The notes beneath the pieces were generated by a model. The model was not told the DNA's origin. It made no database searches and saw only the letters and a program-made list of their open reading frames with translations. 64,000 nt of DNA from Methylomonas sp. UP202 (GTDB lineage Bacteria > Pseudomonadota > Gammaproteobacteria > Methylococcales > Methylomonadaceae): assembly GCF_029910655.1 (NCBI RefSeq), contig NZ_CP123897.1, positions 3,523,547 through 3,587,546 of the forward strand. Direction: 5' to 3'. Position 1 is the stretch's first letter. Every line of letters begins with the position of its first letter. The position numbers and the translations under genes are program-made. Shown here piece after piece: positions 24,453 to 35,769 of this stretch.

Positions 24453-24467
24453 GCACCACAAGCGTGC
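24453..24467 (+). promoter_or_regulatory. Candidate NtrC-binding dyad
   Basis: GCAC-N7-GTGC (24453-24467), the half-site spacing of the NtrC consensus TGCACC-N5-GGTGCA. It lies about 180-190 bp upstream of the predicted sigma-54 transcription start, a usual enhancer distance. A single match of this kind can occur by chance; position and pathway context raise its value. Confidence 0.4.
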
Positions 24468-24618
24468 AAAATGTCGTAAACCGTACCGATTGAGTGCAAC
24501 TTTGATCCCACTTGGCCACACACCGACAAGCCACACCGACAACCGCGACCGACCGAACTCAAGTCATATTATTGATTTTTAATTAAATTATCGCAAAGCG
24601 ACTCAGAAATATCGGTTT

Positions 24619-24634
24619 TGGCATCCGAATTGCT
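24619..24634 (+). promoter_or_regulatory. Sigma-54 (-24/-12) promoter of the nitrate operon
   Basis: TGGCAT-N5-TTGCT at 24619-24634, with GG and GC separated by exactly 10 bases. It matches the sigma-54 consensus TGGCAC-N5-TTGCW except for one T. Predicted transcription start is around 24645, four bases before the first leader hairpin and about 140 bp before the nrtA ATG. Sigma-54 promoters need an activator such as NtrC, which suits nitrogen-limitation control. Confidence 0.7.
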
Positions 24635-24648
24635 TTCGGGCTAACGTA

Positions 24649-24692
24649 GCTCCGTGATAGGAGCCGACTGAATTTAGGCTCGACGTAGAGCC
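24649..24692 (+). ncRNA. Leader RNA with two hexaloop hairpins (ANTAR-type candidate)
   Basis: Two consecutive hairpins, each with a perfect 5-bp stem and six-base loop: GCTCC/GGAGC closing GTGATA (24649-24664) and GGCTC/GAGCC closing GACGTA (24677-24692), separated by 12 bases. They lie between the predicted transcription start and the leader terminator, as the paired hexaloop target of ANTAR antiterminators (NasR, NasT) does in nitrate operons. The usual A at loop position 1 and G at position 4, as I recall the consensus, are only partly met: the second loop has G4, the first has neither. Confidence 0.5.
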
Positions 24693-24700
24693 GACAGACA

Positions 24701-24752
24701 AAGGCGTCTAACTCTCGTTTCGGTAACGAAACGGGGTAGACGCCTTTTTTTT
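24701..24752 (+). terminator. Leader terminator (attenuator) of the nitrate operon
   Basis: Outer stem AAGGCGTCTA (24701-24710) pairs perfectly with 24737-24746. A nested 7-bp stem CGTTTCG/CGAAACG closes a GTAA tetraloop (24716-24733), and a run of eight T's covers 24745-24752. It stands 34 bp before the nrtA start codon and inside the predicted transcript, so it must be read through for the operon to be expressed. The upstream neighbour ppk2 is divergent, so the hairpin is not terminating an upstream gene. Confidence 0.88.
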
Positions 24753-24785
24753 GGCCTGACTTTTTCAAACCCACGGGAATCCGCC

Positions 24786-26171
24786 ATGACTTATCGCACG
24801 ACATTCGCTCCGAAATCTCTGATCGCGGCCTTGGCTACGCTGATCGCCGCCGGCCTGGCCGGTTCGGCCTGGGCGGCCGGCAAGCCGGAAAAAGAAGACC
24901 TGAAATTCGGCTTCATAAAACTGACCGACATGGCGCCGTTGGCCGTCGCCGCCGAGAAAGGCTTTTTCGAGGACGAAGGCCTGTTCGTGCAACTGGAAGC
25001 CCAAGCCAATTGGAAAGTGGTAATGGACCGGGTCGTCAACGGCGAACTGGACGGTTCGCACATGCTGGCGCCGGCGCCGCTGGCGGCCAGCATCGGCTTC
25101 GGCACCAAGGCCGACATCGTGACTGCCTTCAGCATGGGTTTTAACGGCAACGCCATCACCATTTCCAACGACATCTGGAAGCAAATGAAGCCCAACGTGC
25201 CGATGGACGGCGGCAAACCGGTTCACCCGATCAAAGCCGACGCGTTAAAACCGGTCGTGGACAAATACAAGGCCGAAGGCAAGCCGTTCAACATGGCGAT
25301 GACCTTCCCGGCCGGCTCGCACAATCTGAAACTGCGCTACTGGCTGGCGGCCGGCGGCATCCATCCCGGTTTCTACGCACCGCCCCAAGACATTTCCGGC
25401 CAGATCAACGCCGACGCACTGCTGTCGGTAACGCCGCCGCCGCAAATGCCGGCCACTCTGGAATCCGGCACCATCTTCGGCTATTGCGTCGGCGAACCAT
25501 GGAATCAGCAAGCGGTATTCAAAGGCATCGGCGTGCCGGTGATCACCGACGAGGAACTGTGGAAAGACACGCCGGAAAAAGTCTTCGGCGTCACCAAGAC
25601 CTGGGCCGATAAATACCCAAACACCTATCTGGCGGTGACCAAGGCGCTGATCCGCGCCTCGATCTGGCTGGACGCCGAGAACAACAAAAACCGCAAGGAA
25701 GCCATCGAAATGCTGTCGCAAAAACAATACGTCGGCGCCGACGTCGAGGTACTGGCGGCCAGCATGAACGGCAGCTTCGAGTACGAGAAAGGCGACAAGC
25801 GTTCGCTACCCGACTTCAACACCTTTTTCCGCCACGGCGCCAGCTATCCATCCTACGGCAGCGCGGTCTGGTATCTGACCCAATTGCGCCGCTGGGGCAT
25901 GATCAACGAAGCCAAACCGGACAACTGGTATCTGGAAACCGCGAAAAATGTCTACCGCCCCGACATTTATCTGGCCGCGGCGAAGGAGCTCGTCGCCGAA
26001 GGCAAGGCCAAGGCCGAGGACTTTCCGGCCGACACCGCCATCAAGCCTTCGCAAAACTTCTTCATCGACAAAGTACCGTTCGATGCCAATAAGCCCAACG
26101 ATTATCTGGCCAAGTTCGCGATCGGCTTGAAAGGCAAACAAACAGTTTCCGGCGGCAAGGTCGTCGACTAA
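24786..26171 (+). CDS. nrtA: Nitrate ABC transporter substrate-binding protein
   Basis: A 461-residue periplasmic solute-binding protein of the NrtA/CmpA type. A Sec signal peptide (LIAALATLIAAGLAGSAWA, cleavage near residue 31) precedes the mature start. The fold opens with LKFGFIKLTDMAPLAVAAEKGFFEDEGL, typical of nitrate and bicarbonate binding members. NrtB-type permease and fused ATPases follow in the same direction, and a nitrate reductase lies further down, so nitrate (or nitrite) is the likely ligand rather than bicarbonate or cyanate. No lipobox was seen, unlike cyanobacterial NrtA. Its expression is probably gated by the leader terminator just upstream. Confidence 0.88.
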   Translation: MTYRTTFAPKSLIAALATLIAAGLAGSAWAAGKPEKEDLKFGFIKLTDMAPLAVAAEKGFFEDEGLFVQLEAQANWKVVMDRVVNGELDGSHMLAPAPLAASIGFGTKADIVTAFSMGFNGNAITISNDIWKQMKPNVPMDGGKPVHPIKADALKPVVDKYKAEGKPFNMAMTFPAGSHNLKLRYWLAAGGIHPGFYAPPQDISGQINADALLSVTPPPQMPATLESGTIFGYCVGEPWNQQAVFKGIGVPVITDEELWKDTPEKVFGVTKTWADKYPNTYLAVTKALIRASIWLDAENNKNRKEAIEMLSQKQYVGADVEVLAASMNGSFEYEKGDKRSLPDFNTFFRHGASYPSYGSAVWYLTQLRRWGMINEAKPDNWYLETAKNVYRPDIYLAAAKELVAEGKAKAEDFPADTAIKPSQNFFIDKVPFDANKPNDYLAKFAIGLKGKQTVSGGKVVD

Positions 26172-26209
26172 GAACCTTTGGTGGGTGCTCAAAAGCAGGG
26201 ACGCGATTT

Positions 26210-26231
26210 GATGCAGGGAGGCATCTTTTTT
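26210..26231 (+). terminator. Weak hexaloop hairpin followed by six T's
   Basis: GATGC/GCATC (26210-26214 and 26221-26225) closes the loop AGGGAG and is followed by TTTTTT (26226-26231), 39 bp after the nrtA stop codon. The stem is only 5 bp, so termination would be partial at best. It may lower expression of the permease and ATPase genes relative to the binding protein. Confidence 0.35.
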
Positions 26232-26258
26232 ACCAACCGAAATTTTGCAGCAAGCGCA

Positions 26259-26327
26259 GGGTACCCACCGCGTACCTTGCCAGCCGATCCGATTGTCAAG
26301 ACCGAAAAAAGGTACGCGGTGCGTATC
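26259..26327. repeat. Paired palindromic repeat between nrtA and nrtB
   Basis: GGGTACCCACCGCGTACCTT at 26259-26278 and, in reverse complement with two mismatches, AAGGTACGCGGTGCGTATC at 26309-26327. The arms are about 19 bp with a 30-base loop, and each arm is itself a partial palindrome of the form GGTACGC-N3-GCGTACC. A second pair of the same family lies at 29139-29206. It probably belongs to a dispersed REP/MITE-like repeat and forms a hairpin in the nrt message. Confidence 0.75.
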
Positions 26328-26354
26328 TACGACATCACATACAGAGGTATCCAG

Positions 26355-27368
26355 ATGACTAACAAACTCATCAAATTCTTCAACATCACCGGCCTGACCT
26401 GGTTCGTGCCGCTGGTCAAAATCGCCGCCGGCGAAAATCCGGCCCAACAACTGCGGCAACTGTTCTTGGTAATGGGCGTGCCGATGATTGCCTTCGCGCT
26501 GTTTCTGGGACTGTGGAGCGTGTCGGCCTCCGGTGTCAATACCAGCCTGGGCACGATTCCAGGTCCGGTCGCGGTGTGGGACGAAGTCGGCGGTCTGATA
26601 GCCGAACACACCGCCGAACAAACCAAGAAGGCCGAGTTCTACCAGCGCCAAGCCCAGCGCAATAAGGAAAAGCTGGCCGAAGACCCCAAAGCCGACATTA
26701 AAACCCGGCCTTACACCGGTAAACCGACCTATCTCGACAAAATCCTGACCAGTCTGCGCACCGTGTTCGCCGGCTTCGTCATCGCGACCTTGATCGCGGT
26801 GCCGATCGGTATCCTGTGCGGCATGAGCCCGGTGCTCAATACCGCCTTCAATCCGTTGATCCAGATTTTCAAACCGGTATCGCCGTTGGCCTGGCTGCCC
26901 ATCGTCACGCTGGTGGTCAGCGCCGCCTACGTGACGACCGACGACTCCTGGTTCGAGAAATCCTTCATCACCTCGGCGATTACCGTGACCTTATGCTCGC
27001 TATGGCCGACGCTGATCAACACCGCCGTCGGCGTGTCGTCCATCGATCGCGACCTGGTCAACGTCGGCAAGGTATTGCGGCTGGACTGGATGACCCAGAT
27101 CAAGCGCATCATTCTGCCGTCGGCCCTGCCCTTCATTTTCACCGGCATGCGCTTGTCGCTGGGCGTGGGCTGGATGGTGCTGATCGCCGCCGAAATGCTG
27201 GCGCAGAATCCGGGTCTGGGTAAGTTCGTTTGGGACGAGTTCCAAAACGGCAGTTCCAATTCGCTAAGCCGCATCATGGTGGCGGTGTTCACGATCGGCT
27301 TCATCGGCTTCGCGCTGGACCGCATCATGCACTCGTTGCAAAACCTATTCTCTTTCCAAAAAGTGTAA
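26355..27368 (+). CDS. nrtB: Nitrate ABC transporter permease
   Basis: A 337-residue inner-membrane permease. The ATG at 26355 has AGAGG at seven-base spacing; the in-frame upstream stretch is the repeat region and is not coding. A first membrane segment ([20 protein letters not shown]) precedes an insert rich in Lys/Glu (about 85-125), then five more segments. The cytoplasmic EAA-type loop [20 protein letters not shown], followed by [20 protein letters not shown], docks the ATPases. It resembles NrtB/CmpB/TauC-type permeases. It lies 183 bp after nrtA and 10 bp before the ATPase gene. Confidence 0.88.
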
Positions 27369-27378
27369 GGCCGCCGCC

Positions 27379-29130
27379 ATGAATGCCCCCGCCAAAATCA
27401 TCGAACTTTCCATGCAAAAAACCGCGACCAACCAACCCGCCAACGACGCGCGCGCGCCGCTGGTCGAATTGAAAAATGTCTGTAAATCCTACGGCGAGGG
27501 CCGGAGCAAGACCTCGATCCTGAAAGACATCAATCTGGACATACAAGAAGGTGAATTCATCGCCATCGTCGGCTTTTCCGGCAGCGGCAAAACCACGTTG
27601 GTGTCGCTGATCGCCGGCCTGATCCGGGCCGACGCCGGCGAGTTGCTGAAAAACGGCGCGGCGATCCGCGAACCCGGACCGGACCGAGGCGTGGTGTTTC
27701 AAAACTATTCGCTGATGCCGTGGCTGACCGTTTACGAAAACGTGGCGTTGGCCGTCGATGCGATCTTCAAGGACTGGACGCCGGCGCAACGCCGCGCCCA
27801 CGCCGAAAAATACGTCAAGATGGTCAATCTGGGCCGAGCCATGGACAAGCGCCCGGCCGAACTGTCCGGCGGCATGCGCCAACGGGTCAATGTCGCCCGC
27901 GCCTTGGCAGCCAACCCCGATATTTTATTGCTGGACGAACCGCTCAGCGCGCTGGACGCTCTGACGCGCGGCAACTTGCAGGACGAGATTCTGCAAATCT
28001 GGGAGCAGGACAAGAAGACCGTCATTCTGATCACCAACGACGTCGACGAAGCCATCTACATGGCCGACCGGGTGATCCCGCTGAAACCCGGCCCTGACGC
28101 CACCTTCGGCCCGGATTTCGTCATCGATCTGGAACGGCCGCGCGATCGCGCCGCGTTGAACCACGATCCGGAGTTCAAACGTCTGCGTGCCGAAATCACC
28201 CGCTATCTGATGGACATCGGCCTGCAAAAAGCCCAAGCCGAAGTCGGCGACCGGGTCAAGCTGCCGGACGTGCGTCCGAACACCAGCAACGACTGGAAAC
28301 TCGATACCTCGGCGCTCAAGCCCAGCCAAACCGATCTGGGTAAGGCCCGCTATCTGGAGTTCGCCAACCTGTCGAAAATCTATCCGACCCCGGACGGCAA
28401 CAGCACCGTCAAGGTGGTCGACGGTTTTGACTTGCGGATGAAAAAAGGCGAATTCGTGTCGATCATCGGCCATTCCGGTTGCGGTAAATCCACAGTGTTG
28501 TCGATGACCGCCGGCCTCAACGATATTTCCGAAGGCGGCATCATTCTGGATAACCGCGAAATCGACGGTGCCGGCCCGGATCGCGGCGTGGTGTTTCAGG
28601 CGCCGAGTTTGTTTCCGTGGCTGACCGCGTTCGACAACGTGATGCTGGGTGTGGACAAAGTCTATCCACACGCCAGCCAGGACGAGCGCGACGACATCGT
28701 CGAATACTACTTAACCCGAGTGGGCCTGGCCGACTCGATGTTCAAGAAAGCCGCCGACCTGTCCAACGGCATGCGCCAACGAGTCGGCATTGCCAGGGCC
28801 TTCGCGCTGTCGCCGAAACTGCTGTTGCTCGACGAACCCTTCGGCATGCTGGATTCGCTAACCCGCTGGGAATTGCAGGAGGTGTTGATGGAAGTGTGGG
28901 AACGCACCCACGTCACCGCCATCGTCGTCACCCATGACGTCGACGAAGCGATTCTGCTGGCCGACCGGGTGGTGATGATGACCAACGGACCGCACGCCAA
29001 GATCGGCAAGATACAAGACATCGATCTACCGCGGCCGCGCAGCCGCAAGGCGCTGCTGGAGCATCCGGACTACTACCGTTACCGGGAAAGCCTGCTGACC
29101 TTTCTGGCGGAGTGCGACCACACCCATTAG
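27379..29130 (+). CDS. Nitrate ABC transporter, two fused ATPase domains (NrtC/NrtD-like)
   Basis: A 583-residue protein made of two complete ABC ATPases. First domain: Walker A GFSGSGKT (65-72), signature LSGGM (162-166), Walker B ILLLDEP, and ITND with Asn220 where the switch histidine is expected. Second domain (from about 325): Walker A GHSGCGKS (364-371), signature LSNGM (461-465), Walker B LLLLDEP, and a normal THD (His519). Both deviations fall in the same composite ATP site (Walker motifs of domain 1 with signature of domain 2), so one site may be non-hydrolytic. Cyanobacteria encode NrtC and NrtD separately; here one chain supplies both. The NrtA-like C-terminal domain of cyanobacterial NrtC is absent. 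Confidence 0.88.
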
Positions 29131-29138
29131 ATATTGTT

Positions 29139-29206
29139 GGGTACGCATCCCGTACCTTTTCAAGCCATGAACAAACCGAATTCAACCAGGTACGCGCTGC
29201 GTACCC
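29139..29206. repeat. Paired palindromic repeat between the ATPase and porin genes
   Basis: GGGTACGCATCCCGTACCTT at 29139-29158 and AGGTACGCGCTGCGTACCC at 29188-29206, reverse complements over 19 bp with two mismatches. Each arm is again near-palindromic (GGTACGC-N3-GCGTACC). Same family and similar overall size (68 versus 69 bp) as the element at 26259-26327. Confidence 0.75.
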
Positions 29207-29292
29207 TAGGACGCTTTGTGCCGAAATTCCCGCCTTGCAGGCTTAGGCGGATGGCAAACCGACTTTCGACCGACCACAGACCAGGAGACATC

Positions 29293-30585
29293 ATGTTCAA
29301 ATCCACACACATCTTGCCGGCCGGCGTGCTGGCGATCGCCGGAGCCGGCACGCCGGCCCAAGCCGACATCACCAAGGAGGTGGAGGACGCGCTGAATTTT
29401 TACCACTACGGCAGTAACGGCGCCGTCAAAATGGATTTGAACTACCGCTGGGAAAACGTCGATCAGGACAAAGGCCCCATCATCCCCGGCAAGGCGCCGA
29501 AACGGGTGGAAACCGCGAACGCCAATACCGCCCGCTTACGCTTGGGCCTGCTGTCGCCGACTTTTTACGATTTCCAAGCCTACGCCGAATACGAAGGCAA
29601 TTACGCGCTACAGGAGGACTACGATCAGGGCGGCACGACGTTGAACCGTCACCGCGACTACTCGCTGATCGCCGACCCTGACCGTAGCGAGCTCAACCAG
29701 TTCTGGCTCAGTTACAAGGGCATCGCCGACACCTTGATCAAGGTCGGCCGGCAACGCATCAAATTCGACGACGACCGCTTCATCGGCAACGTCGGCTGGC
29801 GGCAAATGGAGTCGACCTACGACTCGGTGCTGGTTACTCACAACAACCAAACCCTGTTCGGCTTAACCGTCAACGCCGGTTACCTGGACCACGTGCAAAA
29901 CATTTTCGGCGAAACCGACACCTTGAACGCGCCGGTGCTGAATCTGAATTACAAAGTCGGCGATTGGGGTAACCTGATCGGTTACGGCTATTGGCTGGAC
30001 TTCCGCGAGCGCGCCAATTACGCCAAATCCTCGCAAACCTACGGCCTGCGCTTCGACGGCAAATCGCCGCAGTTCTTCGATACCGTGAATTTTCTGTACA
30101 CCGCCGAATGGGGCAAGCAATCCAATTACGCCGACAACCCCAACCATTACCAGGCCGACCGCATCAACCTGATGGGCGGTCTATCGGCTTTCAACCTGAC
30201 CTTGCAAGGCGCGATGGAACAGCTGAACGGTTACGGATTGAACAAGACCTTCAACACGCCGTTGGGCACCAACCACGCCTTCCAGGGCTGGGCCGATTTG
30301 TTCATCAATCCGTTGGGCAACGCCACCTTGGGCCAGGGTATCCGCGACGTGTTCGCCACCGCCAGCTATAAGGCGATGAACGATACGTTGATCGTCACCG
30401 GCATGTATCACGATTTCTACGACGACACCGGCGGCGTCGAATACGGCAGCGAGTGGGATTTCTCGATTTTGAAAAAATTCGGCAAGCACTACTCGCTGCT
30501 GGCCAAGTACGCCAATTTCAACACCGAAAACGCCGCGTTTACCGATACCCAGAAAATCTGGCTGCAGGCCAACGTCAGTTTTTAA
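29293..30585 (+). CDS. Outer-membrane beta-barrel porin (alginate-export-like family)
   Basis: A 430-residue outer-membrane protein. The ATG at 29293 has AGGAG at five-base spacing. A signal peptide (LPAGVLAIAGAGTPAQA) is followed by alternating amphipathic strands (MDLNYRWENVD, NTARLRLGLLSPTFYDFQAY, FWLSYKGIADTLIKVGRQRI) and a terminal phenylalanine (LQANVSF), the outer-membrane insertion signal. The KVGRQRIKFDDDRFIGNVGW region resembles alginate-export-like porins. Its place between nitrate transporter and nitrate reductase genes suggests it admits nitrate to the periplasm; this is inference from neighbourhood. Confidence 0.82.
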   Translation: MFKSTHILPAGVLAIAGAGTPAQADITKEVEDALNFYHYGSNGAVKMDLNYRWENVDQDKGPIIPGKAPKRVETANANTARLRLGLLSPTFYDFQAYAEYEGNYALQEDYDQGGTTLNRHRDYSLIADPDRSELNQFWLSYKGIADTLIKVGRQRIKFDDDRFIGNVGWRQMESTYDSVLVTHNNQTLFGLTVNAGYLDHVQNIFGETDTLNAPVLNLNYKVGDWGNLIGYGYWLDFRERANYAKSSQTYGLRFDGKSPQFFDTVNFLYTAEWGKQSNYADNPNHYQADRINLMGGLSAFNLTLQGAMEQLNGYGLNKTFNTPLGTNHAFQGWADLFINPLGNATLGQGIRDVFATASYKAMNDTLIVTGMYHDFYDDTGGVEYGSEWDFSILKKFGKHYSLLAKYANFNTENAAFTDTQKIWLQANVSF

Positions 30586-30594
30586 CGACTTAGC

Positions 30595-30626
30595 ACGGGA
30601 ACCGGCCGTTAGCGGCCGGCTCCCGT
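30595..30626 (+). other. GC-rich intercistronic hairpin after the porin gene
   Basis: A 14-bp inverted repeat with one mismatch (ACGGGAACCGGCCG, loop TTAG, complement to 30626) and no T-run. It lies 10 bp after the porin stop and 26 bp before the next start. Without T's it is more likely an mRNA-stabilising or processing hairpin than a terminator. Confidence 0.55.
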
Positions 30627-30651
30627 GGCGCAACGTTATCGAGGCAAGAAC

Positions 30652-31872
30652 ATGAAACCGAAACTCGTCGTCGTCGGCAACGGCATGGCCGGCATGCGGA
30701 CCGTCGAACAACTGCTGCAAATCGCCCCCGACCTTTACGACATCACCGTATTCGGCGCCGAACCGCACGGCAACTACAACCGCATCATGCTGACGCCGGT
30801 ACTGTACGGCGCGAAAAATTTCGCCGACATCGTGATCCACGACTTCGACTGGTACCGGAGCCGCGCCATCACGCTACATTGCGGTCCCGCCAAAACCGTG
30901 GTCGCCATCGACCGGACGCGACGCCAAGTCATAGCGCGCGACGGCACGACGGCGGACTACGATAAACTGCTGATCGCCACCGGTTCGCTACCGCTGCTGC
31001 TGGACATTCCGGGTCGCGACTGCGACGGCGTGATGGGCTTTCGCGACATCGCCGACGTCGAGACGATGATCGCCAAATCGGCCCGGCGCCGTCACGCGGT
31101 GGTGCTGGGCGGCGGCCTGCTGGGACTGGAAGCGGCCAACGGCTTGTTGAAACGCGGCATGCAAGTCACCGTGGTCAACCGCGCCGACCACTTGCTGAAC
31201 CGGCAACTCGACGCCCAGGCCGGCGAATTCCTGCGCCGGCACCTGGCCGAAACCGGCATGGAATTCCAACTCGGCGCCACGATCGCGGCGATTGTCAGCC
31301 GCGCCGGCCACGTCGTCGAGGTCGAACTGGACAACGGTCAAAAACTACCCGCCGATTTGCTGGTGATGGCTACCGGCATTCGGCCGAATATCGGGCTGGC
31401 CGAGGCCGCCGGCCTGGAATGCCGGCGCGGCATCGTTGTCGACGATGCGATGCAAACCAGCGATCCGGCCGTGTACTCGGTCGGCGAATGCATCGAACAT
31501 CGCGGCGAATTGTTCGGCTTGGTGGCGCCGGTCTACGAACAAGCCAGAATCTGCGCCGACCAACTGGCCGGCGGCACGGGCAGCTATCGGACCGGTTTCG
31601 CCGCGACCATGTTGAAAGTCACCGGCATCGATTTATTTTCGGTTGGCGACTTCGACGGCGATGCCGACAGCGAAACCCTGCGCTTCGTCGATTATGGCCT
31701 CGGCATCTATAAAAAAGTGGTACTGCGCGGCGACGTGCCGATCGGCGTGATTCTGTACGGCGATACCGGCGATGCCAATGGCTATCTGCGCTTGGTCCGC
31801 GACGGCGTGCCGGTGAGCGACAGACGCCGGCGCTTACTGTTTGGCGGCGCGACAACCGCCGAGGCCGCCTGA
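30652..31872 (+). CDS. FAD/NAD(P)H oxidoreductase, nitrate reductase electron-transfer subunit
   Basis: A 406-residue pyridine nucleotide-disulfide-type flavoprotein resembling the N-terminal half of NirB and small nitrate-assimilation reductases (NasB/NasC-like). FAD-binding VVVGNGMAGMRTVEQL is at the N-terminus; NAD(P)H-binding VVLGGGLLGLEAANGL is near residue 150; the flavin-contacting DDAMQTSDPAVYSVGEC follows. It has no C-terminal [2Fe-2S] or sirohaem domain, so it is not a nitrite reductase. Probable job: pass electrons from NAD(P)H to the nitrate reductase encoded 12 bp downstream, whose C-terminus carries a BFD-type [2Fe-2S] domain. The ATG at 30652 has GAGG upstream. Confidence 0.85.
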   Translation: MKPKLVVVGNGMAGMRTVEQLLQIAPDLYDITVFGAEPHGNYNRIMLTPVLYGAKNFADIVIHDFDWYRSRAITLHCGPAKTVVAIDRTRRQVIARDGTTADYDKLLIATGSLPLLLDIPGRDCDGVMGFRDIADVETMIAKSARRRHAVVLGGGLLGLEAANGLLKRGMQVTVVNRADHLLNRQLDAQAGEFLRRHLAETGMEFQLGATIAAIVSRAGHVVEVELDNGQKLPADLLVMATGIRPNIGLAEAAGLECRRGIVVDDAMQTSDPAVYSVGECIEHRGELFGLVAPVYEQARICADQLAGGTGSYRTGFAATMLKVTGIDLFSVGDFDGDADSETLRFVDYGLGIYKKVVLRGDVPIGVILYGDTGDANGYLRLVRDGVPVSDRRRRLLFGGATTAEAA

Positions 31873-31884
31873 GACAATAGCACC

Positions 31885-34560
31885 ATGAGTCCAACCACCA
31901 TCGTCAAGACCACTTGCCCTTACTGCGGTGTCGGCTGCGGCATCTCGGCCGAAATCGAGGATGCCGCCGGCCACCGCGTCCGGATTGCCGGCGATCCGGA
32001 GCATCCGGCCAATTTCGGCCGGTTATGTTCCAAGGGCGCCGCACTGGCCGACACCGTGTCCTTGGAAAACCGCCTGCTCTATCCGCGTATCGGCGGTGCC
32101 CGCGCCGATTGGGACAGCGCGCTGGACCTGGTCGCCGAGCGTTTCCGAGCCGCGATCGCCGAGCACGGCCCGGATTCGGTGGCCTTCTACGTGTCCGGCC
32201 AATTGCTGACCGAGGATTACTACGTCGCCAACAAATTGATGAAGGGCTTCATCGGCTCGGCCAATATCGATACCAACTCGCGGCTGTGCATGTCGTCGGC
32301 GGTGGTTGGTTATAAACGGGCCTTCGGCGCCGACGCGGTGCCGTGCAATTACGAAGACCTGGAATTGGCCGATTTGATCGTGCTGGTCGGCTCCAACGCG
32401 GCATGGTGTCACCCGGTGGCCTTCCAGCGCATCCGCAAGGCCAAGGAACGCAATCCGGCGTTGAAAATCGTCGTGGTCGATCCGCGCCGCACCGCCAGTT
32501 GCGACATCGCCGATCTGCATCTGCCGATTCAACCCGGCATGGACGCGCTGCTGTTCGACGGCCTGCTCGGTCATTTGGCGGCGATCGCCGCCACCGACGC
32601 CGCCTATATTACCGCTTATACCGAAGGCTTCGAGGCGGCCTTGGCGCAAGCGCGAAGCGCCGCGCCGGACATCGCCGCCACCGCCGCGAATTGCGGTCTG
32701 GCCGCCGCCGACGTCGGTTTGCTGTTCGACTGGTTCGCCGCGACCGAAAAAACCGTCACGGTGTACTCGCAAGGCATCAATCAATCCAGTTCCGGTTCGG
32801 ACAAATGCAACGCCATCATCAACTGTCATCTGGCCACCGGCCGCATCGGCCGGCCCGGCATGGGGCCGTTTTCGTTCACCGGCCAACCCAACGCGATGGG
32901 CGGCCGCGAGGTCGGCGGCCTGGCCAACATGCTGGCCGCGCACATGGATTTGGACAATCCGGTCCATGTGGATCGAGTCGGCCGATTTTGGGGTAGCCAG
33001 CGGGTCGCCGACCGCCAGGGCCTGAAAGCGCTGGAACTGTTCGACGCGGTCGCCGCCGGCAAGATCAAGGCAATCTGGATCGTCGCCACCAATCCGGTCG
33101 CGTCGATGCCGGACGCCGACCGGGTCAGGCAGGCGTTGCAGGCTTGCGATTTCGTGGTGGTGTCCGATTGCATCGCCGATACCGACACCACTCGATTGGC
33201 GCACGTGCTGCTGCCGGCCACCGGCTGGAGCGAAAAAGACGGCAGCGTCACCAATCTGGAGCGGCGGATTTCCCGCCAACGCGCGTTGTTCGCGCCGTCC
33301 GGCGAGGCCCGCCACGACTGGTGGATCTTCAGCCAGGTGGCGCAACGCCTGGGATTTGGCGAAGCCTTCGCCTACCGATCCAGCGCCGAGATTTTCCGCG
33401 AACACGCCGCGCTGTCGGCTTTCGAAAACGATGCCGCCTACGGTCGCCGCGACTTCGATCTGTCCGGTCTGGCCGAGCTGAGCGATCCGGCCTATTCCAA
33501 CCTGCAACCGCTACAATGGCCGGTGAGCGCAGCCGGCGGCACTGCCCGGCTGTTCGGCGACGGCCGGTTTTTCACGGCCAACGGCAAAGCCCACTTCGTG
33601 CCGGTGTCGCCCCGCCCTCCCCGCCACGTGCCCGACGCCAACTATCCGTTCACGCTGAATACCGGCCGCTTGCGCGACCAGTGGCACACGATGACCCGCA
33701 CCGGCCTGGCCGCCAAACTGAACACCCACCAAGTCGAACCTTGCGTCGAAATCCATCCGGACGACGCCGCCCGCCTGCGGTTGCCGGCCGGCGCCATCGC
33801 CAAACTGACCAGCCGCTGGGGCGGCATGCTCGCCAAGATCGCGATCAGCGCCGAACAACGGCCCGGCAGCTTGTTCGTGCCGATGCACTGGACCGGCGTC
33901 AACAGCAGCCACGGCCGGATGGGCGCGTTGGTCAATCCGGTGGTCGATCCGTTGTCCGGTCAGCCGGAAAGCAAGCAAACGCCGGTCGCCATCGAAGCCT
34001 GGCCGGCCGGCTGGCATGCCGTACTGTTGTCGCGGCAAGCCTTGCCGCTATCGGACTGCGAATACCGGGTGGAGATGCGCGGCGACGGTTTTTACCGTTA
34101 CCAACTGGCCGGCGGCCATACCGGCCGGGACTGGCGAACCTGGAGTCGCCACCGGCTGGCCGCCAATGCGGCCGAACGGTTGGACCGCCACTGGCTGGAA
34201 TACAGCGATCCGCCATCCGGCGACTTTCGGACTGCTCTGATCACCGAAGCCGGCCTGCAAGCTTGTTTATTCGTCGGCGCCGGGCCGGAATTGCCGGAAC
34301 CCGGCTGGATCGCGACCTTGTTCGGCAAAACGGCCTTGAGCCGGGGCGAACGCCTGAGTCTGTTGAGCGGCGCACCGCCCGCCGGCGAAGCCGATATTGG
34401 CCGAATCGTCTGTTCGTGTTTCAATGTAGGCGAGAAAACCATTCGGCAAGCGGTTCGCGACCGCAAGCTCGGCAATGTCGCCGAGATCGGCGCCTGCCTG
34501 GGGGCGGGTACCGGCTGCGGTTCCTGCCTGCCCGAGTTGAAGGTTTTTCTAGCGACCTGA
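31885..34560 (+). CDS. nasA: Assimilatory nitrate reductase, molybdenum catalytic subunit
   Basis: An 891-residue molybdopterin oxidoreductase that reduces nitrate to nitrite in the cytoplasm. The N-terminal [4Fe-4S] motif TCPYCGVGCGI continues to a fourth Cys in GRLCSKGAAL (about residue 50). Molybdopterin-domain landmarks include NIDTNSRLCMSSAVVGYK, GINQSSSGSDKCNAIINCHL and GPFSFTGQPNAMGGREVGGL. After the molydopterin dinucleotide-binding domain (NTGRLRDQWHTMTRTG) comes a BFD-like [2Fe-2S] domain at the C-terminus (VCSCFNVGEKTI ... GAGTGCGSCLPEL), as in Klebsiella NasA. Needs Mo-bis-MGD; mobB and moeA lie 17 kb downstream. Confidence 0.95.
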   Translation: MSPTTIVKTTCPYCGVGCGISAEIEDAAGHRVRIAGDPEHPANFGRLCSKGAALADTVSLENRLLYPRIGGARADWDSALDLVAERFRAAIAEHGPDSVAFYVSGQLLTEDYYVANKLMKGFIGSANIDTNSRLCMSSAVVGYKRAFGADAVPCNYEDLELADLIVLVGSNAAWCHPVAFQRIRKAKERNPALKIVVVDPRRTASCDIADLHLPIQPGMDALLFDGLLGHLAAIAATDAAYITAYTEGFEAALAQARSAAPDIAATAANCGLAAADVGLLFDWFAATEKTVTVYSQGINQSSSGSDKCNAIINCHLATGRIGRPGMGPFSFTGQPNAMGGREVGGLANMLAAHMDLDNPVHVDRVGRFWGSQRVADRQGLKALELFDAVAAGKIKAIWIVATNPVASMPDADRVRQALQACDFVVVSDCIADTDTTRLAHVLLPATGWSEKDGSVTNLERRISRQRALFAPSGEARHDWWIFSQVAQRLGFGEAFAYRSSAEIFREHAALSAFENDAAYGRRDFDLSGLAELSDPAYSNLQPLQWPVSAAGGTARLFGDGRFFTANGKAHFVPVSPRPPRHVPDANYPFTLNTGRLRDQWHTMTRTGLAAKLNTHQVEPCVEIHPDDAARLRLPAGAIAKLTSRWGGMLAKIAISAEQRPGSLFVPMHWTGVNSSHGRMGALVNPVVDPLSGQPESKQTPVAIEAWPAGWHAVLLSRQALPLSDCEYRVEMRGDGFYRYQLAGGHTGRDWRTWSRHRLAANAAERLDRHWLEYSDPPSGDFRTALITEAGLQACLFVGAGPELPEPGWIATLFGKTALSRGERLSLLSGAPPAGEADIGRIVCSCFNVGEKTIRQAVRDRKLGNVAEIGACLGAGTGCGSCLPELKVFLAT

Positions 34561-34596: not shown

Positions 34597-35769
34597 ATGC
34601 AAGCCAAACTACAGTTATTTCCGTATTTTCAACCTATCATTTCCACCGCCAGCGGCCAGATCGTCGGCTACGAGGCGCTGGCCCGCCAACACGACGCTAA
34701 CGGCCGCGTGGTTTCGGCCGGCGCTTGGTTTTCCTCGGCCGACATCGACGCCAAGCAGCGAACCGAACTCGACCGCCAGGTGCGTTGGCAGGCCTTGCAA
34801 AAATTTGCCGAACACGCCGATCCCAACAGTTTTCTGGCCATCAATATCTCGGCGGCCTGGATAGACAATCTGCGCCAGCTGAACGCGGTGCCGACGGTGC
34901 GGATGCTGGAAGAACTGAATATCGACCGCGGCCGGGTCATCGTCGAAATCTCCGACGCCCCCGCCGATCCGCAAAAACTCAAGCAAATCGTCCAGCGCTA
35001 CCGCAAACACGGCCTGAGCGTGGCGATCGGCGATTTCGGCGCCGGTTCCTCACAACTCGAACGGCTGATCGCGGTCCAGCCCGACATTATCAAGATCGAC
35101 ATGCGCTTGTTCAAGCAAGCCGCCAAGGGCGGCATCGCCGGCGACATCATGCAAGTGTTGTCGCGACTGGGCAAGCGCACCGGCGCCCGGCTGACCTGCG
35201 AAGGGGTCGAAACCGACGAGGAATTCTGGTTCGGGTTGGACTGCGGCGCGCAATATATGCAGGGTTTTTTGTTCGGCAAGGCCGAGGCCGATTTCAAGCC
35301 GGCCCAGCAATATCAGCAACACATTGCCTCGCTGCGCGGCAAGTTTCTAAAACAAACCCTGGTCCGCGAAGAACGCAAAATCAACGCCATCAACACCCTC
35401 AAGAGCTTGGCCTATCGGCTGGCGGAGGCTTTGCAAGACGATTTCAATCTCAACGAATTGGTCAGTTGGAATTTCGCGGAAAGCGGCGTAATCCGCTTTT
35501 ATCTGTGCAACAACCTGGGCGACCAGATTTCCCCCGACTTCAATTTCAGCGCCAACCGCTGGTTTACCGATCCGCGCAAGATCGGCTTCAATTGGTCGTG
35601 GCGGCCTTATTTCTTTCAACTGTTGGCACTGGAACATTGCGGCGACCGCGACCGCATCGTCAGTTCCGAACGCTATCGCGATTTCGAGACCAACCTGCTC
35701 TGTAAAACGCTGGCATTACGGCTGGACGGCGACCGATTATTGCTGGTCGATACCGTCGCGGTCGATTAA
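34597..35769 (+). CDS. EAL-domain protein with YkuI-like C-terminal sensor
   Basis: A 390-residue protein. The EAL domain fills residues 5-245: EAL motif at 26-28, Asn83 (AINIS), Glu117 (VEIS), Lys166 (IKID), Glu202 (CEGVE) and Gln222 (MQGF) are all present. The loop-6 motif normally DDFG reads GDFG (Gly145-Asp146), losing one metal-binding aspartate, so c-di-GMP hydrolysis may be weak or absent and the protein may act as a receptor. Residues 260-390 form a second domain with NWSWRPYFFQL, similar in layout to the PAS-like C-terminus of Bacillus YkuI. It starts 36 bp after nasA on the same strand, with AGGGA upstream. Confidence 0.8.
   Translation: MQAKLQLFPYFQPIISTASGQIVGYEALARQHDANGRVVSAGAWFSSADIDAKQRTELDRQVRWQALQKFAEHADPNSFLAINISAAWIDNLRQLNAVPTVRMLEELNIDRGRVIVEISDAPADPQKLKQIVQRYRKHGLSVAIGDFGAGSSQLERLIAVQPDIIKIDMRLFKQAAKGGIAGDIMQVLSRLGKRTGARLTCEGVETDEEFWFGLDCGAQYMQGFLFGKAEADFKPAQQYQQHIASLRGKFLKQTLVREERKINAINTLKSLAYRLAEALQDDFNLNELVSWNFAESGVIRFYLCNNLGDQISPDFNFSANRWFTDPRKIGFNWSWRPYFFQLLALEHCGDRDRIVSSERYRDFETNLLCKTLALRLDGDRLLLVDTVAVD

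Follow-up and report, generated by a model that had tools for sequence, protein, structure and literature searches.

A conserved ANTAR-type attenuator with three hexaloops behind a predicted sigma-54 promoter of a methanotroph nitrate operon

The window (the whole stretch of 64,000 nucleotides that was analyzed) stems from a Methylomonas koyamae-like genome, whose NrtA is 100% identical to that of strain R-45383. It holds a set of nitrate genes on the plus strand, preceded by a promoter and a structured leader. The features are as follows:

24453-24467, no strand assigned: putative NtrC-type dyad GCACCACAAGCGTGC (GCAC-N7-GTGC), 166 bp upstream of the -24 element; from sequence
24619-24634, plus: sigma-54 -24/-12 promoter TGGCATCCGAATTGCT (TGGCAT-N5-TTGCT); from the sequence pattern, relatives and RpoN
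24649-24664, plus: H1, first hexaloop, GCTCC[GTGATA]GGAGC; stem intact, loop without A1 and G4; from fold and alignment
24677-24692, plus: H2, second hexaloop, GGCTC[GACGTA]GAGCC; G1 and G4; from fold and alignment
24696-24709, plus: H3, third hexaloop, AGAC[AAAGGC]GTCT; A1/G4; probable antiterminator; from fold
24700-24752, plus: intrinsic terminator (stem 24700-24747, U8 24745-24752); from fold
24786-26171, plus: substrate-binding protein of nrtA type, N terminus signal-peptide-like (PF13379, 326 bits)
26178-29130, plus: nrtB-type permease, scoring under the NCBIfam cut-off, and a protein of nrtC type that has two ABC domains and scores over the cut-off
29134-34560, plus: porin-like protein, NirB-like flavoprotein and nasA-type molybdoprotein; from family matches
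30625-31872, plus: the NirB-like flavoprotein; from family matches
31885-34560, plus: the nasA-type molybdoprotein; under the NCBIfam cut-offs
34597-35769, plus: protein with EAL and YkuI_C domains, 37 bp after nasA, a speculative candidate signalling partner; from domain matches and linkage

The ATG of nrtA at 24786 was read directly from the sequence. Family matches under the NCBIfam cut-offs, together with Pfam and context, are the basis for the names nrtA, nrtB and nasA, and the genes at 29134-34560 are taken as the remainder of the operon, judged from gene order. In the stretch 30625-34560, a 415-residue protein resembling the N-terminal part of NirB is followed by the nasA-type protein, in which a stretch (residues 840-889) likewise matches part of NirB.

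A first-pass annotation of this DNA had named the dyad, the -24/-12 element, the first two hairpins, the terminator and the nrtA start. All of these could be read directly where it had placed them, and its assignment of the promoter to the sigma-54/NtrC type is supported. The pattern TGGCAY-N5-TTGCW occurs once in the 64 kb (0.15 expected), and the looser TGGCAY-N6-TGCW likewise once (0.6 expected). The dyad pattern GCAC-N7-GTGC is not unusual, with 2 occurrences against 3.3 expected in the 64 kb; these chance expectations were derived from 20 first-order random sequences. A TGGCN-N7-TGC element is kept in 23/23 relatives, all of which also carry an NtrC-type core (TGGTGC/GCACCA) at most 230 bp upstream of the -24 element, against 9.7% expected; the set of 23 excludes L050, L053 and L058 of the methanotroph group described below. 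The genome encodes RpoN as well as an NtrC with a full score (742 bits, cut-off 558.6). Judged by sequence, the -24/-12 element, RpoN, NtrC and the upstream site would all be at hand, and transcription is predicted to start at about 24645. Sigma-70-like and terminator-like matches on the minus strand were rejected.

The same annotation had described the leader as a two-hairpin motif. Both H1 and H2 are real, but they are not the whole motif: neither overlaps the terminator, and H3 was absent from its list. It is H3, the last of the three short hexaloop hairpins, that overlaps the intrinsic terminator. The two have 24700-24709 in common, i.e. ten bases of the 5' arm of the terminator. When the predicted transcript was cut at 70 nt, before the 3' arm of the terminator, and then folded, H1, H2 and H3 were obtained in both the minimum-energy and the centroid structure (z = -2.0 only, with 9/200 shuffles as good). 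In the fold of the 108-nt leader (-50 kcal/mol, z = -6.0) the terminator replaces H3. In the folding model H3 and the terminator are thus mutually exclusive, and H3 is the probable antiterminator hairpin. The linker between H2 and H3 measures 3 nt in the window, and 3-6 nt between 4-bp stems in the family. In an earlier study, shortening a linker to that same 3-nt length hurt eutP induction (PMC3369931). A simple terminator scan did not report the terminator at 24700-24752. Tandem pairs of 5-bp hexaloop hairpins are not clearly unusual by count (each strand has 4, against 2.0 expected from the same random sequences); it is because of the fold and the conservation that the leader elements are more than chance. 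As extra targets, two more GACAAAGGCGTC sites of the genome were considered and rejected, both lying inside long coding frames.

A search of related genomes for the leader, which the first-pass annotation had proposed as a check, was positive. The three-hairpin model (R1) matched in 85/151 genomes of the family, and an ANTAR protein is encoded in 88/151. Leader and ANTAR gene occur together in 82 genomes, the leader alone in 3, the ANTAR gene alone in 6 and neither in 60 (Fisher p 3.8e-31, a value that ignores relatedness). E-values were calculated per genome, so that chance alone should give 1-2 matches in 151 genomes and about 4 in 369. In a class-wide scan the model matched in 37/369 genomes, among them the source genome and one member each of the family and the order. 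In four genomes (G042, G083, G110 and G144) three or four leader matches each were observed, mostly within one nitrate gene cluster, which suggests a small ANTAR regulon.

For the alignment of 40 leaders, window included, rows were chosen by the H3 pattern and the sigma-54 pattern; H1 and H2 were not selected for. In this alignment 96% of the cells pair. Both sides vary in 7 of the 13 pairs (4 in H1, 2 in H2 and 1 in H3), and the covariation amounts to 0.274, compared to 0.160 in shuffled and at most 0.107 in slid alignments. The helices of H1 and H2 covary; the inner pairs of H3 contribute no covariation because they hardly vary. This covariation, the co-occurrence with the ANTAR gene and the bases shared by H3 and the terminator all argue against a constitutive attenuator or sRNA source in which the hairpins would be bystanders unbound by NasT. 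The related Rfam family P11 is catalogued as an sRNA, which speaks for such a role, yet this explanation is judged to be highly improbable. As a conserved attenuator of the ANTAR (NasT) type that follows a sigma-54/NtrC-type promoter, the leader is a known kind of switch in an unusual layout.

In the window, the A1/G4 loop rule is kept by H3, followed at G4 only by H2 and at neither position by H1. That H3 has A1/G4 in 40/40 aligned rows is circular, because the rows were picked on the H3 pattern. The H2 loops are A1/G4 in 36 rows, G1/G4 in three (the window, L033 and L034) and five bases long in one. This last case (AGTTT in L125:1227-1293) is a naturally occurring deviation from the hexaloop rule. 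The H1 loops are A1/G4 in 30 rows (28 as aligned and 2 once shifted by one column), while 7 rows have G1/G4 and 2 have G1/A4 (the window and L033, from the same species); in L056 the loop is lost. In L034 the minimum-energy fold closes the H1 loop to four bases. Loop position 1 is therefore a purine and not strictly A in part of the 40-leader set. The first-pass annotation had raised the possibility that the odd loops point to a different recognized sequence or another factor. GTGATA and GACGTA do depart from A1/G4, but they belong to a series in which most relatives have A1/G4, and the main RNA contacts of NasT are as in such relatives (see below).

The number of hexaloops differs between groups. 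The methanotroph group was taken to comprise 27 loci (the window and L033-L058, among which L034, L054 and L058 are only generally named). H3 is found in 24/27 of its nrtA leaders, of which 20/24 carry two further hexaloops of the R1/G4 type (purine at position 1). Among the other loci H3 is found in 25/54, with no further R1/G4 hexaloop in 11, one in 9 and two or more in 5; these outside counts are rough, because some outside "H3" picks resemble a first hairpin (e.g. L077 and L097). The difference in leaders with three R1/G4 hexaloops (20/24 versus 5/25) gives a p of 1.2e-5, under a loop rule that was fixed after the loops had been seen; the shuffled background for two is at most 0.1%. The window itself is scored with one further loop, because its H1 lacks G4. 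Outside the group, triple arrays are scattered over other Gammaproteobacteria (L183, L185, L191, L192, L196 and L205, in 28 loci examined). Within it, H3 is present without other loops in L041. L050 and L053 have nrtA with a sigma-54 element and no H3 was found in them, an apparent loss of the attenuator. A literature search by title brought up no work on methanotroph NasT or on ANTAR leaders with three hexaloops, which is not proof of absence.

These counts bear on the role of H1. The chances are about even that only H2 and H3 are used and that H1 is a relic, so that this species would have an ordinary two-hexaloop ANTAR leader. In both strains the H1 loop (GTGATA/GCGATA) is without A1 and G4, L056 has lost H1 too, and a single further hexaloop or none is what most leaders outside the methanotroph group show. 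On the other hand, the stem of H1 is intact and has one additional pair in the nearest strain, and most leaders of the methanotroph group keep both upstream hexaloops. H1 may simply be decaying in this species.

A search for nasT or nasR elsewhere in the genome, also proposed by the first-pass annotation, yielded one NasT behind narK. It is the single ANTAR protein of the genome, with 192 residues and a receiver-like plus an ANTAR domain, as in the NasT of NasST systems. In Pfam only Response_reg and ANTAR were matched; the NIT domain that marks a NasR system was not found. With the chosen start codon, nasT begins 2 nt past the narK stop, and the narK-nasT pair diverges from nirB. This arrangement is found in 11/11 genus genomes opened (12 in the set). 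In L227 and L230, nasT, leader and nrtABC stand in succession, with the leader between nasT and nrtA. By alignment to EutV, the phospho-acceptor position of NasT is occupied by Asn, as in all 11 genus genomes opened. The RNA contacts were taken from the EutV-RNA structure, as described in PMC8934654. R142, K143, K149, E160, Y164, R168 and M172 are conserved in NasT, and K147R, N173D, R175N and R177A are altered (numbering placed by hand). At the main contact positions, NasT does not differ from the NasT of relatives whose loops are A1/G4 (33 of 46 sequences compared; 13 were unmatched by the search pattern). A changed recognition code is therefore unnecessary for H2. A koyamae-specific change in the RNA contacts was also considered and rejected: at the position of EutV R177 this NasT has Ala, and other rows likewise carry Ala, Ser, Thr or Pro. 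In the 33 sequences, Arg at this position is limited to the NasST-type rows L228 and L229.

Taken together, the nrtABC-nasA operon is very probably under double control, with an NtrC/sigma-54 start and NasT antitermination at a three-hexaloop leader. Under nitrogen shortage, phosphorylated NtrC and sigma-54 would start transcription at about 24645. The nascent leader would then form the three tandem hexaloop hairpins. NasT from the distant narK-nasT pair would bind the loops one after another and hold H3, the 3' half of which is the 5' arm of the terminator. With H3 held, the RNA polymerase would read through. Without active NasT, the common 10-base segment would join the stronger terminator and transcription would stop before nrtA. 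H2 and H3 would form the core pair, and H1 would be an extra upstream loading site that is common in these methanotrophs and degenerating in this species. What the sequences show is the anatomy of the leader, its mutually exclusive folds, its conservation, the covariation of H1 and H2 and the joint occurrence with an ANTAR gene; we infer the binding of NasT, the read-through and the inducing signal. Whether the operon is read probably depends on a single RNA-binding protein.

Several known systems resemble this one in part. The consensus of Rfam P11, which we take to be NalA, has a hexaloop hairpin followed by GGACAAAGGCGUCC that runs into the terminator stem; the window leader is built alike, and H3 resembles GGACAAAGGCGUCC. 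Against the P11 model it scores 23 bits, below the gathering score of 70. In contrast to NalA/P11, the window has an extra upstream hexaloop and precedes nrtABC-nasA, and a NasS was not found in the genome. For NalA (Pseudomonas nirBD, NasST), a sigma-54/NtrC promoter combined with NasT as antiterminator is described, as proposed here (PMC12830290). For the nasF leader of Klebsiella oxytoca, the target of NasR, three sources likewise describe tandem hexaloops with C:G closing pairs and a terminator at a nitrate operon (PMC7496416, PMC3369931, PMC5424462). The SELEX results for NasR (PMC7496416) are in line with the C:G closing pair and with A1/G4. NasR, however, senses nitrate itself by its NIT domain, whereas NasT is here receiver-like plus ANTAR without NIT. 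The eut leaders of Enterococcus faecalis also have a second hexaloop that overlaps the terminator, and EutV has ANTAR contacts in common with NasT. EutV responds to an ethanolamine/phosphorylation signal, while NasT has Asn for the phospho-Asp and changes at K147, N173, R175 and R177. For the nasA leader of Paracoccus denitrificans and its NasTS, a two-level control by NtrC and NasT with leader hairpins is described (PMC5424462). There NasS is present and co-transcribed with NasT, whereas it was not found here. Loops that deviate from A1/G4 have already been published for actinobacterial ANTAR-target RNAs, in which these positions are just over 50% conserved and single variations are allowed (PMC8164766). 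These targets are described as dual stem-loops, few of them at terminators. It was proposed that an ANTAR dimer visits the hexaloops one at a time (PMC8934654). The natural series of two- or three-loop targets with A1/G4 departures bears on this proposal.

The first-pass annotation had suggested that the same dual logic as in Klebsiella operates here, in response to nitrate. In its outline this logic is correct: the sigma-54/NtrC-type promoter and the ANTAR-type attenuation are supported, while the nitrate-sensing step is not. With a NasT without NIT domain and no second NrtA/NasS-family protein found, sensing as in Klebsiella or by NasST is unsupported. NrtA is the sole NMT1_2 match in the genome (E 0.001); as it alone matches the NrtA/NasS family, the usual nitrate sensor was not found here. 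Among the 88 ANTAR-positive family genomes, NMT1_2 proteins of at least 280 bits number two in 5, one in 72 and none in 11. A weaker paralogue of 164-172 bits is found in several genomes (e.g. G061, G029, G053, G065 and G129), and in G082 a further fragment lies beside nasT. Two of the five genomes with two matches were opened (L228 and L229). In both, the second protein adjoins a different NasT, which is a classical NasS-NasT pair. This NasT is only 35% identical to the narK-coupled one, i.e. two NasT lineages occur in one family. The system raises the question of the nitrate input of NasT when NasS is missing.

The EAL/YkuI-like gene behind nasA suggests, speculatively, c-di-GMP as a signal to NasT. 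Orthologues (E at most 1e-60) were found in 55/151 family genomes, with 56 matches. Of these, 24 lie within 12 kb of nasT, nrtA or a leader (a rough 2% would be expected), 22 of them on the same strand; 10 others are farther off on the same contig and 22 are on contigs without a listed element. In G025, G090 and G134, from three genera, the EAL match begins 37-50 bp after the ANTAR match. According to a review, c-di-GMP inhibits the NasT of P. putida (PMC12830290). It is conceivable, though unlikely, that the leader is set by NasT abundance or by c-di-GMP and not by nitrate through NasS, with the EAL/YkuI-like protein setting the signal. The linkage, the P. putida inhibition and the single NMT1_2 protein in most ANTAR-positive genomes fit such a scheme. 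However, the linked cases are not independent events, because 9/24 are from Methylomonas, and in the genus members G094 and G117 the gene is far from the nas genes. In the EAL domain, Gly also stands at the position of the first DDFG Asp, and YkuI is the closest relative with a solved structure. Its enzymatic activity is therefore doubtful, and the protein may bind c-di-GMP rather than cut it. A broader proposal would be that Methylomonadaceae-type methanotrophs harbor a NasS-less NasT branch. In this genus, the three-hexaloop array would then be read by a narK-coupled NasT that lacks the phospho-Asp, and the activity of this NasT would be set by c-di-GMP through a nas-linked EAL/YkuI-type protein instead of by a nitrate-binding NasS. 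This is quite unlikely as a whole; if true, the c-di-GMP state would gate nitrate use in these methanotrophs. Their nitrate use in turn bears on methane consumption.

A second leader of the same genome was also compared. The nirB leader (L002 12600-12740) and those of L218-L227 show a sigma-54-like element and GGAC[AAAGGC]GTCC with a terminator. The three-hairpin model gave 14.2 bits on the nirB leader, for the H3 part only, and did not find the whole leader; its fold is no better than shuffles (z +0.47). In several Methylomonas, the first hairpin of the nirB leader has a loop of seven bases (AAGTCT[TGTCGTT]AGACTT type) and not a hexaloop.
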